Source of the DNA: Gammaproteobacteria bacterium
GTDB taxonomy: Bacteria > Pseudomonadota > Gammaproteobacteria > Pseudomonadales > Pseudohongiellaceae
Length of the DNA stretch: 64,000 nucleotides
Assembly: GCA_009922595.1 (NCBI GenBank)
Contig: RFVC01000005.1
Span: 1 to 64,000, forward strand
Direction of reading: 5' to 3'
Under the pieces are notes generated by a model that did no database searches, was not told where the DNA came from, and saw only the letters and a program-made list of their open reading frames with translations. Shown piece by piece: positions 39,440 through 56,019 of the stretch (the first letter of the stretch is position 1; the number at the start of each line of letters is the position of its first letter). Made by a program: the position numbers and the translations under genes.

Positions 39440-41980
39440 TTAGAACTGATATCTCATACCTAAGATGAAGGTAGAGCCGTACTCGTCATACTGAGATAAT
39501 CTGGCTCCGTTTCCAAAGTAGTAGTACTCAGGACGATCATTAAGGTTGAGCGCTGCTGCATTTAGTAGGAGGTTATCATTAACCTGGTACTTCACAGTAA
39601 GATCCACCTGCATGTGATCACTTGTATAGCGGTCATTAAGAGCATCGCCGCCGACTTCGTCCAGATAATCGTCCCTAAAGTTGGTCGCTAATCGAACATC
39701 CCACGAACCTTTATCGTATCCAAGCACTAGGTTTGCTGTGTTCTCTGCCTGCTTGAAGTAGGGTATGGTTCGATCACCAGAGGCCGCGTCTGCAGGCAAG
39801 TCTGTTTCACCATCAGCGTGTGTGTAGTTAAGAACGAACAATAAACCATTCTCCCAGGCTGTCTGAAATGAAAGCTCGTAACCAAGAATATTGCTGTCAT
39901 CAGCATTAACAAAAGTACTGGCCTCCTGCCAGAACTCCCCTCTTAGTGTTACATCCTGCCTTTCTACCTCGACAATTGAGTCCTGGATCTGCTTGTAAAA
40001 AAGCCCTGCACTCAAAAAGGTATCTTGATTCAAATAAAATTCGTAACTGACATCAAAATTCCACGCGGTGGTTGGGTCAAGCTCTGGGTTTCCACCCTCA
40101 ATTTCCTGATCTTCATTATTGATAATTGCGCCAGCACGTGACTGATTGAATCCAGGCCTGACCAACGATCGAAAAACTCCCACACGCGCAATTTGTGTGT
40201 CATTTACGTCGAACTTTACATTTAGAGATGGCGCCCAGAAATCATAATCGTTATTAAATCGGGCAACACCGGTGTAAAGTAGATCAGAGTTCCAGTTTTT
40301 TCCTGTGTAGGTCGCACTCGTATCCTCATAACGTAAACCATATACCCAGGTAGCGTTTCCTGAGATAGTGGTACCCATGAGGTAACCTGCCAAAACGTCT
40401 TCCTCGGTGAGCCAATCAGCAGGGATCGACTCCTCTTCCTCATCGCCACTAAACTCAAATAACGAACCAACTGAGGGGCAAAAAGTTCCGTCACTTAGCG
40501 CAGTAAATCCAGTGCCTCGTTTTTCGGCCATGGAGCGCACATGAGCCGTCGATGGAGCTGGACCGTGAACTGTTTCAAGATACTGGGGGATAGCCACTGT
40601 ATTAGCTGCAGTAAGGGGCAAATCATCTAGGGGCTCATAGCCACAGTAGTTAAAATTGTTCTCTTTTTCACGCTGGCGGTATTTTAAGCCATACTGCAAT
40701 TCAGTCTCAGCGCTCAGCTGCCAAGTCATATCAAATTTAGCACCAACATCCCGGTCAGTCGTCAAACCAATTTCATGTTCAAATGCTTTTAGTTTGAAGA
40801 TACCTGGATTCTTAAATTCCGAGGGGTATGTCAGAACTGGCTGATTAGGATTACTGTTGTTATAGACCAACGGTTGATCAAGTTCTTTACTTCGATAGAT
40901 AGTTGCAAACTTGTTGGTGTCATCCTGCTCAGCGCGTGAACCAAATGCCTCTATCTTGATGTTACTGCCGTTGTCTAGTGTCCATTCTGCACCAATCTGG
41001 CCAGCACTTATCTCCCTTCTCTCTGGGCGCCAGCGGGCCTCTGTATCAAAGCGACTAGTGGCATAAGAAAAGTTACTGCCGTTGATGACAGCATCATTGT
41101 CTTCCATGGAATCCCTGACTTCCCACTTGCCTCGGTACTCTGTATCTAGGTATTCGTTATGGAATACATGGGCATAAAAGAGATCGCCTTCGGTGTTCCT
41201 GTAATCCAGATTCAGAACGACGCCTTCCCTCTCACGCTCCATATCGTAGTAGCGCATTTCGTAGTCATCGTTAGGCGATACATCACCCCAACCGCCATTT
41301 TCATTATTATGCGCGATGATCCTGCGAGTCTGATCGCTAAGCACGAGCGCCACGCCAAGTTCTCCGTCATTCATTGCAAAGCGATCTGTATAGGTCGCAG
41401 ACACCATCGGATTACTAGAGTCTTTAGTCAGTTCGTTATGTGATGTCTGAGCCATCACCCTTACATTTCGATCGTCAAAAGAAAATGCTGAAATCGTTTC
41501 TAGGTCAATAGCGCCACCAATGGTGTCCGCATCAAGGTTGGGGGTCAGCGTCTTGTAGACGGTCATAGAGCTCAGAATATCGGTTGGTACACCGTCGAGC
41601 ATTATCCCGCGGCGATCTTCAGGCGATGTGGTGCTAACACCATTAATAGTCATGGCGTTTAGATCTGTATTCATACCTCTTACAGAGACGTATCTTCCTT
41701 CACCCTGATCATTTTCCACCATTATTCCTGAAATTCGACGCAGTGATTCCGACACATTTATATCTGAAAAATTACCTAAGGCATCAGAGTCCACCACACC
41801 GACAACCTTGTCAGAATTTCTCTGCCTATCAATGGCATTCTGAAGTGCTGCACGTGTACCGACAACTTCGATTTCTTCTAAAATTTCCTGCGCAAAAACA
41901 GTGGCGGATGCAGAGCAAGCCAAGCCTACACTCACAGATAGACAGGCCTTTTTAAAGGAGTCACATTTGACTAGTTTCAT
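39440..41980 (-). CDS. TonB-dependent receptor, probably phytate/inositol-phosphate linked
   Basis: 846 residues. Signal peptide (cut after VFAQ, about residue 30), then a TonB-box-like EEIEVVGTRA. The plug domain contains SDINVSESLRRISGI, GRYVSVRGMN and a LETISAF-like exit. A 22-strand barrel ends in FILGMRYQF. The type resembles TIGR01782-like receptors. With the phytase downstream it probably imports inositol phosphates or a phytate-metal complex (inference). The DNA is visibly AT-richer than the housekeeping genes, with many A/T-ending codons. Transcribed after arsC and acr3 on the same strand, 165 bp away. Confidence 0.88.
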   Translation of the reverse strand: MKLVKCDSFKKACLSVSVGLACSASATVFAQEILEEIEVVGTRAALQNAIDRQRNSDKVVGVVDSDALGNFSDINVSESLRRISGIMVENDQGEGRYVSVRGMNTDLNAMTINGVSTTSPEDRRGIMLDGVPTDILSSMTVYKTLTPNLDADTIGGAIDLETISAFSFDDRNVRVMAQTSHNELTKDSSNPMVSATYTDRFAMNDGELGVALVLSDQTRRIIAHNNENGGWGDVSPNDDYEMRYYDMEREREGVVLNLDYRNTEGDLFYAHVFHNEYLDTEYRGKWEVRDSMEDNDAVINGSNFSYATSRFDTEARWRPERREISAGQIGAEWTLDNGSNIKIEAFGSRAEQDDTNKFATIYRSKELDQPLVYNNSNPNQPVLTYPSEFKNPGIFKLKAFEHEIGLTTDRDVGAKFDMTWQLSAETELQYGLKYRQREKENNFNYCGYEPLDDLPLTAANTVAIPQYLETVHGPAPSTAHVRSMAEKRGTGFTALSDGTFCPSVGSLFEFSGDEEEESIPADWLTEEDVLAGYLMGTTISGNATWVYGLRYEDTSATYTGKNWNSDLLYTGVARFNNDYDFWAPSLNVKFDVNDTQIARVGVFRSLVRPGFNQSRAGAIINNEDQEIEGGNPELDPTTAWNFDVSYEFYLNQDTFLSAGLFYKQIQDSIVEVERQDVTLRGEFWQEASTFVNADDSNILGYELSFQTAWENGLLFVLNYTHADGETDLPADAASGDRTIPYFKQAENTANLVLGYDKGSWDVRLATNFRDDYLDEVGGDALNDRYTSDHMQVDLTVKYQVNDNLLLNAAALNLNDRPEYYYFGNGARLSQYDEYGSTFILGMRYQF

Positions 41981-52433: not shown

Positions 52434-53678
52434 TTACTGGTTGATCAGGCGTGTTTCCCAGATTACACGGGTATCGAGGGGCCGGGAATAGAGCAGCTCA
52501 CCACCAAAGTTGGTATGGTCAAAACCCTGCACTTCGTAGAGGGCTTCAAAGCTCAAACCCTGCCCGCCCAGGTTATCCTGCAGCGTAGCCAGGGAGTTCA
52601 GTGAAGTCAGCTCTCGAGATATATTGATCAGCCCCTCATCCCGCATACCCGCCACCAGGAGAAAATGGTTGCCGTTAGGTGCCGGGAAAGTCGATACCAT
52701 GCCGTAATCTTGGAAGCTCTGAGCGCCGGAAAGTCCGGACGAGCCGATGTAGTAACGGTTGGTTTCCAGGTCCACCAGCTCATCGTAGGTGGCACCGATG
52801 GAGAGCCCCGAGTCGGCAAACATGAGATCAAGCAAGGGTTCGATACCACTCAGGTAGCCCAGGTAAACTAGGTGGTTGTCAGCCAGGTCGGCCGTTTCCA
52901 GTTCAGACATCATCTTGACGCTAACCATCGAAGCCTTGGACGCCAGGACCGGTATTACCCTGAGCATGGCATTTGCCACGCTGGTTGGCAGGTAGGAAAG
53001 ATCAAGGTCTAGGAATCTGTCTGGCCCTGTATCACCCGCAGGCAGATCCTCCGGGGAATTAATATTGAACTCGCGCACCATGCGCGTGACATTGCCGGCC
53101 TCATCCACCTCGCCAAAAATGTAGTAATCGCCGACGACAATCAGTATCGGCAGTTCATCATCCAGCAGTGACTGCCAGGGCTGGAGAGAGGCCACCGGGG
53201 CAAGCACTGGAGAGGAGCTGTCCGCCGGCTCATCCCTGACCAGCAGATTCAGCAACAGCAAAACCGACGCCAGGGCGGCAAGCCACGGCGTCCAGGAATT
53301 CCTTGTCAGGGGCTGGCCGCTGATACTGACATCTTCTTTGCCCGATTCCTCGTTGAGACTGAAGGTCACGATGTACTGCCCCTTGGGAATGGTCAGGCGA
53401 AATTTTTCCTGTTTCCCATACAGGGCGTAGTACTGATTGATCTTGTTGCGTAGGTGAAAAATATGGACGCGAACGATGGAGTCCTTGGCCACGTCGAAAT
53501 CAGCATCACGCCCCAGCACGTCCACGGCGATGGCCGCCTCCTTGGGAGTTTTACCTGCCTGTGAGCACTCGGCCAGATAACGCAGAATGGCGCCATAGGT
53601 CTTGGATCGGCCCAGCACACCACTGTTAATGATGCGTTCAAACAGGGCTTCCAACTCTTCTTTCTGGATATGGGTCAT
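52434..53678 (-). CDS. Membrane-anchored winged-helix transcriptional regulator (CadC/ToxR-like topology)
   Basis: 414 residues. The N-terminal winged-helix domain (about 1-108) includes DFDVAKDSIVRVHIFHLRNKI (in part) and RLTIPKGQYIVTF, the recognition helix and wing of a Trans_reg_C-like fold. A single membrane helix follows at about 130-147 (WTPWLAALASVLLLLNLLV). The remaining 265 residues would be periplasmic and match no family I recognise (ILIVVGDYYIFGEV, YDELVDLETNRYYIG, GNHFLLVAGMRD). This is the layout of one-component sensors such as CadC and ToxR. It diverges from a TonB receptor gene across 241 bp holding a strong palindrome and direct repeats. The receptor is the likely target; the ligand is unknown. 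Confidence 0.75.
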   Translation of the reverse strand: MTHIQKEELEALFERIINSGVLGRSKTYGAILRYLAECSQAGKTPKEAAIAVDVLGRDADFDVAKDSIVRVHIFHLRNKINQYYALYGKQEKFRLTIPKGQYIVTFSLNEESGKEDVSISGQPLTRNSWTPWLAALASVLLLLNLLVRDEPADSSSPVLAPVASLQPWQSLLDDELPILIVVGDYYIFGEVDEAGNVTRMVREFNINSPEDLPAGDTGPDRFLDLDLSYLPTSVANAMLRVIPVLASKASMVSVKMMSELETADLADNHLVYLGYLSGIEPLLDLMFADSGLSIGATYDELVDLETNRYYIGSSGLSGAQSFQDYGMVSTFPAPNGNHFLLVAGMRDEGLINISRELTSLNSLATLQDNLGGQGLSFEALYEVQGFDHTNFGGELLYSRPLDTRVIWETRLINQ

Positions 53679-53790
53679 TTTACTGTTGATTCATGAGTGA
53701 GACAGGCATTTTGCTCAGTTTTGGGGCAAATTCAAGCGATTTTTTAACGCGAAAAGGCCCTTAAATCGAAAAATTAACAATTTCTTTAAC

Positions 53791-53824
53791 GTTTTATAAA
53801 CAGTTATAAAACAGTTGATTAGTT
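53791..53824. promoter_or_regulatory. Putative operator between regulator and TonB receptor
   Basis: GTTTTATAA (53791-53799), loop ACAG, TTATAAAAC (53804-53812) is a perfect 9-bp inverted repeat. Overlapping it, ACAGTT occurs at 53800-53805 and 53811-53816, an 11-bp spacing, with a third AGTT at 53821. Direct repeats at about one helical turn fit the OmpR/ToxR style of winged-helix binding. It lies about 113 bp from the regulator's start and 96 bp from the receptor's. Confidence 0.5.
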
Positions 53825-53919
53825 AATTTTCAGGGAATTTACGCTTACTATTGGTTCCATAATTTTCCTCCCCTGCCTGGGGGACGTTAGTTTTTATAAA
53901 ATAGGCGATCCAAGGGCTT

Positions 53920-56019
53920 ATGAACATTTTTAACGTTAAAAAATCAATACCGAATTCCCGTCTTCACTCACTGTCTAGGCTTGCTGTCGCCATAGCAGCT
54001 GTTTCTAGTGTCGAGTTCTCCATGGCTCAGGATCAGGAAGACGCTGAGCTGGTATCCCCGATATTTGAATCCATCGTGGTTTGGGGGCGAAGTACACGTC
54101 TTTTGGGTAACGCCGATGGCGGCTCGCACGGTATTGTCGGTAATGCTGATTTCTCAACACGTCCCCTTATGCGCGTTGGTGAACTCGTGGAAGTCATGCC
54201 AGGTATGGTGGCCACCCAGCATTCCGGACCGGGAAAAGCCAACCAGTATTTTTTGCGCGGGATGAACCTCGACCATGGCTCCGACTTCACAGCCATCTTT
54301 GAAGGCATGCCGCTGAATTTTCGCAGCCATGCCCATGCCTCTGGCTATCTTGACCTAAACCCATTGATCCCTGAAATTGTTGAATCAGTGGAATACCACA
54401 AGGGCACTTACTATGCATTTAACGGAGACTTCTCTGCTTCAGGTTCTGCCCGCTTCAAGACTTATGACCGCATCGAGGAAGGTTATCTCGAAGCCACCAT
54501 TGGCAACTTCAATCATCATCGCCTCGTTGGGGCGCAGTCAATTGATACTGCTGACGGCACGTGGCTTTTTGCCGGCGAGCTGCTGACCAGGGATGGTCCC
54601 TGGGATCTTCCTCAGGACCAGGAAAAAACCAACCTCTTCATGAAGTACACCGGGACGATCGGTGGCATTAACAGCCAGGTCACCGCCATGGCCTACGACG
54701 CCAACTGGTATTCCACCGACCAGATTCCACTGCGCGAAGTTCGCAACGGCAACCTTGATTTATTTGGTTTTGTTGACCCGACCCTGGGTGGCACTTCCAG
54801 CCGCTGGAGCCTGATTGGTAATTTCGATCTCGATAACAACATCGATGTGAACGCTTATTTCTCGGCTTACGAGATGAATCTCTTCGGCAACCCCACCTAC
54901 TTCCTCAATGACCCGGTCAATGGTGATCAGATAGAACAGGAAGATGACCGAGCTGTCATAGGCGGCTTCGTACGCTGGCAGGAAGAGCAGATCTGGGGCA
55001 TCAACACGGCCATCCCCATGCTTGGAATTGACGTTCGCTACGATGACATAACTGACGTTAACCTCTGGGATACCCTCGAAAGACAGCGTCTCGGATTCAC
55101 TCGTAACGACTCAGTTGAAGAGTTCAGCTGGAGCCTGTATGGCGACCTTGAGTACCACTGGACCGACACCTTCAGGACCACAATAGGACTGCGTGGGGAA
55201 TTTTTCGACTGGGACGTGACCGCTGCCAATCCATTGAATTCAGGCACAGGCAACGATTCCGAATGGATGCCCAAGTTTAACGCCGCCTGGATACCGGCCG
55301 ATGGCATGGAGGTTTACTTTAATTATGGGCAGGGATTTCACTCCAATGATGTCCGTGGTGCCACCATCACCGTTGATCCGATAAATGGTGATGCTGTCGA
55401 TCCCGTTGATGTGATTGCACAGGCCGAAGGCCATGAAATTGGAGTGCGTTATGAGCCCTCCAGTAACTTTAACTTTTCAGCTGTCGCTTTCTGGCTGGAA
55501 CTGAACTCGGAATTGCTGTTCGTTGGTGATGCCGGCACCTCGGAGCCCAATGATGCCACCAAGCGTCGCGGTATTGAGCTATCCACCTTCTGGCAAATCA
55601 ACGATTATCTAGTATTCGATGCCACGGCTACCTGGAACCGCGCTCGCTTCAAGGACGCACCCTCAGGTGCCGATCGCATTCCTGATGCTCACGAAACAAC
55701 GGCAAGCGCTGGTTTGACCTACGTGCACCCCAATGGATTCACTGGCAGTTTTCGCATGCGCCATTTTGGAGATGCACCACTGGAAGAAACCGACACGTTC
55801 CAGAAAGATGGCACAACGCTTTTTAATCTAGGACTGTCGTATGCCACTAATCGCTGGGAAGTCGGACTGGATATACTCAATGTCTTTGATGATGATGGCA
55901 ATGACATTGAGTATTACTTCGAATCACAGCTGCAGAACGAATCTGAACCTGTGGAGGACTATCATTTCCACCCGGTTGAGGCTCGCGCATACCGCGGTAT
56001 TTTCAAATATAAATTCTAA
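53920..56019 (+). CDS. TonB-dependent receptor
   Basis: 699 residues. Signal peptide (about 1-37, ending EFSMAQ), TonB-box-like ESIVVWG, plug domain with RVGELVEVMPGMVATQHSG, NQYFLRGMNLDHGSDF and FNGDFSASGSARFKTYD, and a barrel ending RAYRGIFKYKF. The plug resembles receptors for organic ligands rather than typical siderophore receptors, but the substrate is unknown. The 5' leader has a small hairpin, TCCCC with GGGGA (53869-53884). It is controlled, by position, from the divergent membrane-anchored regulator. A hairpin without a T run follows the stop. Confidence 0.88.
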   Translation: MNIFNVKKSIPNSRLHSLSRLAVAIAAVSSVEFSMAQDQEDAELVSPIFESIVVWGRSTRLLGNADGGSHGIVGNADFSTRPLMRVGELVEVMPGMVATQHSGPGKANQYFLRGMNLDHGSDFTAIFEGMPLNFRSHAHASGYLDLNPLIPEIVESVEYHKGTYYAFNGDFSASGSARFKTYDRIEEGYLEATIGNFNHHRLVGAQSIDTADGTWLFAGELLTRDGPWDLPQDQEKTNLFMKYTGTIGGINSQVTAMAYDANWYSTDQIPLREVRNGNLDLFGFVDPTLGGTSSRWSLIGNFDLDNNIDVNAYFSAYEMNLFGNPTYFLNDPVNGDQIEQEDDRAVIGGFVRWQEEQIWGINTAIPMLGIDVRYDDITDVNLWDTLERQRLGFTRNDSVEEFSWSLYGDLEYHWTDTFRTTIGLRGEFFDWDVTAANPLNSGTGNDSEWMPKFNAAWIPADGMEVYFNYGQGFHSNDVRGATITVDPINGDAVDPVDVIAQAEGHEIGVRYEPSSNFNFSAVAFWLELNSELLFVGDAGTSEPNDATKRRGIELSTFWQINDYLVFDATATWNRARFKDAPSGADRIPDAHETTASAGLTYVHPNGFTGSFRMRHFGDAPLEETDTFQKDGTTLFNLGLSYATNRWEVGLDILNVFDDDGNDIEYYFESQLQNESEPVEDYHFHPVEARAYRGIFKYKF

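Follow-up and report, generated by a model that had tools for sequence, protein, structure and literature searches.

A putative ToxR/CadC-type membrane-anchored regulator and the direct-repeat ladder that separates it from a divergent TonB-dependent receptor gene

Introduction

TonB receptors are a principal route by which Gram-negative bacteria take up scarce nutrients, and their control has been ascribed to Fur, to sigma/anti-sigma relays and to hybrid two-component systems. Here we analyze a 64,000-nucleotide stretch of DNA (the window; positions 1 to 64,000 of contig RFVC01000005.1, assembly GCA_009922595.1) from a gammaproteobacterium of the family Pseudohongiellaceae, in which the gene for a predicted membrane-anchored one-component regulator, REG, lies divergent from the gene for a TonB-dependent receptor (TBDR). 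An initial annotation of the window had proposed that this receptor is under the control of a CadC/ToxR-type sensor. REG has the domain order of such proteins, the regulator and receptor recur as a pair, an operator in the gap between them is conserved, and in sphingomonads that operator is correlated with REG. This comparative evidence supports a model in which REG controls the receptor.

Several described systems resemble this locus in part. In FecA-FecI-FecR, a TonB receptor is likewise controlled from the envelope; the window receptor differs in having no N-terminal signaling domain in Pfam and a divergent partner that is predicted to bind DNA. The hybrid two-component systems (HTCS) and SusR of Bacteroidota are, like REG, membrane-spanning regulators found beside TonB-dependent SusC genes, but HTCS have a histidine kinase and an AraC-type output, for which there is no Pfam match in REG or in a 53-row alignment of its homologs. 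ToxR and TcpP are membrane-anchored winged-helix proteins, as REG is predicted to be, and are activators; their targets, in contrast, are virulence and porin genes.

The CadC family is characterized by an N-terminal OmpR-type winged helix, one membrane helix, a C-terminal sensor and a neighboring target operon. For CadC itself, the consensus site is TTAxxxxT and two sites are arranged head-to-head (PMC5430869). REG resembles Escherichia coli CadC in its domain order, in its putative neighboring target and in AT-rich sites containing TTA. It differs in that its C-terminal domain matches no solved structure by sequence, its neighbor is a TonB receptor, and its putative operator consists of ∼11-bp direct repeats rather than head-to-head sites. 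The pho box of PhoB is built of 11-bp repeats, a tandem arrangement that accords with recognition by OmpR-family proteins. PhoB and other OmpR-family response regulators offer a second likeness, a winged helix with tandem direct-repeat recognition (predicted on the REG side), although REG has a membrane helix and no receiver domain. We place REG with the ToxR/CadC kind, as a variant distinct from CadC and frequently, though not exclusively, tied to TBDRs. No published regulator-receptor pair of this kind was found in listings of the open literature, subscription papers being mostly outside that search.

Results

REG combines a winged helix with a single membrane helix

REG has an OmpR-type winged helix followed by one membrane helix, and no receiver or kinase domain is found by Pfam in the window protein or in the members of the 53-row alignment; these are the features of ToxR/CadC-like proteins. 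In a whole-protein Pfam scan, Trans_reg_C covers residues 30–82 at 14.6 bits, under the cut-off of 26.2. Scanned alone, the DNA-binding part of the window protein reaches 18.1 bits (E 0.0029), also under the cut-off, and Trans_reg_C is found in 26/26 aligned members at E ≤ 0.1, with a best value of 1.6e-7. The SaeR and ArlR domains head the solved relatives of this part, weakly (E 0.019–0.16). The membrane helix is called by hydropathy alone, without a topology program, from a mean of 1.88 at residues ∼129–147 compared with 1.33 for the runner-up region. A single dominant hydrophobic stretch follows the DNA-binding domain in 52 of 54 REG representatives, and near ties occur elsewhere in the proteins of loci L099 and L111.

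The window TBDR lies across a 241-bp gap from REG and matches the Pfam Plug (PF07715, 40.2 bits) and barrel (PF00593, 104.1 bits) families, both over their cut-offs. Beyond these, the Pfam scan finds at E ≤ 1 only another barrel model, slightly under its cut-off, and no N-terminal signaling (STN) domain is found at that threshold; the NCBIfam siderophore and PqqU models score far under theirs. The winged-helix protein with one membrane helix, divergent from a TonB receptor, that the initial annotation described is therefore present, with both open reading frames (ORFs) in place and their domains found. Sigma/anti-sigma relay and hybrid two-component control were set aside as schemes for this pair, having no supporting domain in REG or the TBDR, where FecI/FecR genes elsewhere were not searched for.

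REG recurs beside TonB-dependent receptors

REG is the sole match in its own genome. Homologs occur in 84 of the 137 genomes of the family, in all 8 genera, and in 16 genomes of an order-wide sample of 293. A phylum-wide sample gives matches in 31 of 398 genomes, 7 of them near full length (window genome included), and in the remaining 24 the match is confined to the first ∼100–165 positions of REG. Among plasmid records, 6 of 274 have any match, and near full-length relatives are found in Catenovulum, Novosphingobium and Persicobacter (Bacteroidota, 24% identity); none was found in viral contigs.

The 84 family genomes hold 86 REG loci, and at 22 of these, with ORFs under 130 aa skipped, a TBDR is the immediate neighbor: divergent in 9, on the same strand upstream in 7 and on the same strand downstream in 6. 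This is about 17-fold over a chance background of ∼1.5%, which is calculated from 19 Plug matches in the window genome and an assumed ∼2,500 genes. In a 94-row tree of REG, for which the tool warned of long branches, the TBDR-neighbor state changes 10 times, and 7 times when family rows alone are counted. With the doubtful row L100, whose receptor lies one gene away from REG, excluded, strongly supported branches require eight changes. At least three unlike TBDR clusters stand beside REG, some with a PepSY_TM gene.

At 17 of the 21 loci from the window genus and two near genera, REG is flanked by what we take to be rplI and dnaB; three of the other four end at a contig edge, and L112 differs. 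At this place the receptor may be present or absent, and divergent or on the same strand. The receptor itself is exchanged. When these genera are searched with the window receptor at E ≤ 1e-100, 20 of their 22 genomes yield a single gene each, and the two that yield none are incomplete. Besides the window, G302 and G332 carry type A (65–67% identity), and 17 genomes carry type B (36–39%). Beside REG, receptors of either type are accompanied by the same ladder of repeats (described below), the type B neighbors at L110 and L113 scoring low.

The pair extends to the Alphaproteobacteria. Within the Sphingomonadales, 13 of 296 genomes have 22 REG places, 21 near full length. At 11 of the 22, REG is divergent from a TBDR (in G1018 as judged by coordinates), and 9 of the 11 receptors concerned belong to the window type. 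At L221 a TBDR follows on the same strand, separated from REG by a 339-aa ORF. The search for the pair in other genomes that the initial annotation proposed thus finds it again in both classes.

A ladder of direct repeats occupies the gap

Between REG and the TBDR, direct repeats of ∼11 bp form a ladder (Table 1), with units TTAAC at 53774 and 53786, TAAACAGTT at 53797 and AAAACAGTT at 53808. The same ladder is seen ahead of receptors A and B, in both orientations.

We ran a 36-nt position weight matrix (PWM), built from 8 training sites, over 144 loci (1.83 Mb), all chosen for holding REG or a TBDR. Untrained hits over 17.3 bits lie upstream of REG or a TBDR in 9/9 cases. With a ladder score of 18 or more, 15 of 16 hits (at least 7 of them training sites) fall upstream of REG or a TBDR, in regions that make up 3.8% of the sequence. 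Of the 26 TBDRs at REG loci, 21 pass a two-unit score (cluster c1, 12/15; c59, 2/3; c60, 5/5; three singles, 2/3), compared with 3.8% of 745 control genes. Away from REG, this score is passed by 8/8 receptor-B genes, 1/2 receptor-A genes of g120 and 1/14 other receptors. Since the ladder unit was read off sites already viewed, this scoring should be taken as a controlled description, not as a blinded test. A generic four-unit score reaches p ≤ 0.05 at 12/22 gammaproteobacterial REG-locus receptors, 6/8 remote B receptors and 1/14 others. Ladder-like sites are also present upstream of REG where no TBDR adjoins it (L052, L053).

For pattern searches, a two-unit pattern with one mismatch was rejected and a three-unit pattern adopted, because in the window genome the former is no commoner than its reversed control (9 matches forward and 9 in reverse, versus 8 and 8 for the control). 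The three-unit pattern, with one mismatch, has its sole match in that genome at 53788–53816. Across the family it matches at 10 distinct places in 9 of the 137 genomes, all 9 of which have REG; six places lie before a TBDR, three before a DUF4198 gene and one inside a receptor gene. A second pattern was searched with two mismatches allowed and is found at 13 places in 12 family genomes, 11 of them before a TBDR and the other two in G339, where no REG was found, and in G370.

The operator-like sites before DUF4198 genes are in L223, L224 and L225 (genomes G293, G296 and G298 of g4). DUF4198 is identified by Pfam in the first two and by eye in L225, and at L223 a NikL-like gene (40 bits against a cut-off of 100) lies between the site and the DUF4198 gene. 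These genes hint at a link to metals, in the three g4 genomes only.

Table 1. Features of the REG-TBDR locus in the window
Feature	Coordinates	Strand	Basis or remarks
REG, membrane-anchored one-component regulator (predicted)	52434..53678	-	ORF, 414 aa, ATG start
REG residues 1-107, OmpR-type winged-helix DNA-binding domain	53358..53678	-	Trans_reg_C; SaeR/ArlR weak
REG residues 129-147, single membrane helix	53238..53294	-	Hydropathy maximum
REG residues 158-414, predicted periplasmic alpha/beta domain, possibly BcsB/flavodoxin-like	52437..53207	-	Low-confidence model
REG-proximal TTAAC..GTTAA-like element TTTTTAACGCGAAAA, degenerate in the window	53741..53755	.	TTAACGTTAA palindrome upstream of REG in relatives
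Operator: ladder of ∼11-bp direct repeats, core AACnGTT	53774..53816	.	Sequence and spacing conserved in relatives
Candidate -10 (TACTAT) of TBDR promoter, downstream of operator	53846..53851	+	By eye
TonB-dependent receptor (TBDR, type A)	53920..56019	+	699 aa, ATG; Plug and barrel; signal peptide by eye
TTAACGTTAA palindrome over first TBDR codons	53927..53942	.	Read in the window

The ladder accompanies REG in sphingomonads

Several sphingomonad REG/TBDR gaps carry a GC-rich version of the same ladder architecture. A PWM built from the sphingomonad genus g247 finds its best site in the REG/TBDR gap at L219/L261, L265, L268 and L218, which belong to other genera or another family, and at L266 of g247. 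Window-type receptors beside REG in the Sphingomonadales have the ladder in 8/9 cases (7/7 in a first set, p 0.005–0.015 versus shuffles, then 1/2), whereas related receptors in sphingomonad genomes without a full-length REG have it in 0/22, four of these genomes having a match to the DNA-binding part of REG only. The first contrast took 30 of the 39 listed receptor places.

The C-terminal domain of REG matches no Pfam family

The initial annotation recognized no known domain in the C-terminal part of REG, and this holds: residues 158–414 (∼257 residues) have no Pfam family in REG or in other members of the 53-row alignment, and profile searches of solved structures reach only E 0.5 at best. 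Because REG has a single membrane helix, this part is expected to be periplasmic. A full-length AlphaFold model of REG (four sequences; mean predicted local distance difference test, pLDDT, 36.3) was not used. The structure prediction that the initial annotation had suggested was made with AlphaFold2 for the C-terminal part alone (4 sequences) and yields a fold hint from a model of low confidence (pLDDT 54.9; predicted template modeling score, pTM, 0.60). The best Foldseek match to this model has E 7.5e-3, with none at or below 0.001. Among the folds listed, Foldseek and VIA-align rank BcsB first (Z about 10 over 154 residues, root-mean-square deviation 3.2), followed by the GH67 and GH115 N-terminal domains (Z about 8). 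The Z for BcsB is only modest, because by the tool's own note models lacking a clear match typically reach a best Z of 7–8. The model therefore hints, with low confidence, at a fold like the flavodoxin-like domain of BcsB or the N-terminal domains of GH67 and GH115. BcsB and the GH67/GH115 proteins are not regulators, and no sequence relation to REG was found; we know of no BcsB/flavodoxin-like sensor domain in regulators.

Points that weigh against control by REG

A number of observations weigh against this model. The initial annotation had counted homologs lying mostly away from TonB receptors against its own proposal, and this is the situation in the family: 57 of the 86 REG loci have no adjacent TBDR, and 7 more have one flank only, without a TBDR there. 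Two Catenovulum homologs adjoin cytochrome or DUF1553/DUF1501 genes. Given these loci, the tie of REG to TBDRs is not an exclusive one. The proposal of CadC/ToxR-type control is partly supported, with the recurrent pairing and the conserved operator in its favor and the many loci lacking an adjacent TBDR against it.

The operator has its own exceptions. In the AT-rich window gap, the generic four-unit score gives p 0.124 against dinucleotide shuffles, and of six further alphaproteobacterial pairs four fail this score at 0.05 and two pass. Remote receptor-A genes of g3 pass the two-unit score in only 2/18 cases, with a weaker variant seen by eye, and among the outputs listed, g3 and most of g2 show no clear operator upstream of REG. 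G295, a genome 73% complete, has the operator, and no REG was found in it. In sphingomonads, the margin of the g247 PWM at L268 is slight (5.1 versus 4.9), and the matrix misses the gap in L263, L269, L278, L214, L215 and others. G1009 has no ladder either at the receptor beside REG (L263) or at a receptor away from it (L291). The contrast of 8/9 with 0/22 is confounded by descent, because seven of the eight positives are closer orthologs. Five permuted PWMs top out at 14.8–19.9 bits, and reversed controls match in 5 genomes for the three-unit pattern and in 7 for the second; for this reason it is the placement of the sites, rather than their counts or scores, that carries weight.

Other neighbors and repeats

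The genome contains 19 Plug matches, and a second Plug domain on the window contig lies at 41510–41824 on the minus strand. A promoter scan of the window did not report the TACTAT -10, and its promoter and terminator counts are near those of shuffles. At L050–L062, a TTAACGTTAA palindrome is found near REG, often with a second ∼190 bp off, with or without a receptor (L052 and L053 being without a TBDR); in the tandem loci L055, L057 and L062 the second palindrome lies over the receptor 3′ end. At L233 (G000:C102:21608-21625), an exact two-unit AACnGTT repeat lies between a response-regulator-like gene and its neighbor.

On the Catenovulum adriaticum plasmids (L213, L216), the REG relatives are divergent from c-type cytochrome or DUF1553/DUF1501 genes, near polysaccharide enzymes. 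Some sphingomonads (G947, G939, G1023; L265, L270, L271, L273–L281) have two to six REG paralogs each, some in adjacent pairs, and several of these adjoin serine-hydrolase-like or DUF6152-like genes, named by eye. In g3, receptor A mostly follows a major facilitator superfamily (MFS) transporter gene, next to YceI and Pyr_redox/AIRS fusion genes (L143–L159), and in G393 (L064) REG lies between an MFS gene and the receptor. A peptidase-like/BlaI-like pair, recognized by eye, adjoins REG at L074, L082, L084, L086, L093, L128 and L131 of g3, the last having only the first member before the contig ends.

Discussion

We consider it likely that REG is a ToxR/CadC-type regulator that controls the divergent TBDR through the ladder. 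The cytoplasmic winged helix would bind the ∼11-bp repeats in the gap, with several copies of REG side by side and acting cooperatively. Tethered to the membrane and positioned upstream of the core promoter, REG would control the receptor gene, probably by activation, as the location of the operator upstream of the possible -10 suggests. In the closest genera, where similar repeats and a TTAACGTTAA palindrome occur upstream of REG, it would probably control itself as well. A signal at the C-terminal domain, perhaps related to the imported ligand, would alter DNA binding, and where the receptor gene lies elsewhere in the genome, REG would reach it through the same operator. More tentative, and close to evenly balanced in our judgment, is the wider proposal that a REG family found in gamma- and alphaproteobacteria, and possibly in Bacteroidota, switches TBDRs through the ladder by means of a BcsB/flavodoxin-like sensor, with unlike receptors exchanged under one operator.

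The alternative that survives best has the DNA-level mechanism in common with control of the receptor through the ladder and differs in what is sensed. REG could be a broader regulator of envelope state, for example of the cell envelope or of redox, with TBDRs as some of its targets and the imported ligand not read; we regard this as a substantial possibility, if somewhat short of an even one. Its neighbors are varied, including the c-type cytochrome and DUF1501/DUF1553 genes in Catenovulum and DUF6644 and NHL genes in g2, a DUF4198 gene lies under the operator in three g4 genomes, and the operator stays the same where receptor B takes the place of A. The tentative fold of the C-terminal domain also resembles BcsB rather than a ligand-binding protein. 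The concentration of operator-like sites at TBDRs argues against such a broad role.

It is unlikely that the ladder is the site of another TBDR transcription factor, with REG a mere neighbor that controls something else. Such a factor would suit g3 and most of g2, where REG is apart from TBDRs and its own upstream region has no clear operator, as well as the incomplete genome G295. It fits less well with the combination of REG gene, TBDR type and ladder in the gap that the gamma- and alphaproteobacterial loci have in common, with the lack of ladders at the 22 related receptors in sphingomonad genomes without full-length REG, or with the ladder-like sites upstream of REG at L052 and L053. That REG and TBDR adjoin by chance, without a regulatory link, is very improbable: most family homologs do lack an adjacent TBDR, but the enrichment over background, the repeated changes on the tree, the occurrence in two classes and the shared operator all speak against it.

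If REG controls the receptor through the ladder as we propose, one protein would both span the inner membrane and touch the receptor promoter, a very short circuit, and the operator would serve as a searchable signature for receptors under REG control. The exchange of receptors under one operator would offer a natural experiment on what the REG sensor reads. Such a circuit would add a further principle to those by which TonB receptors are controlled.

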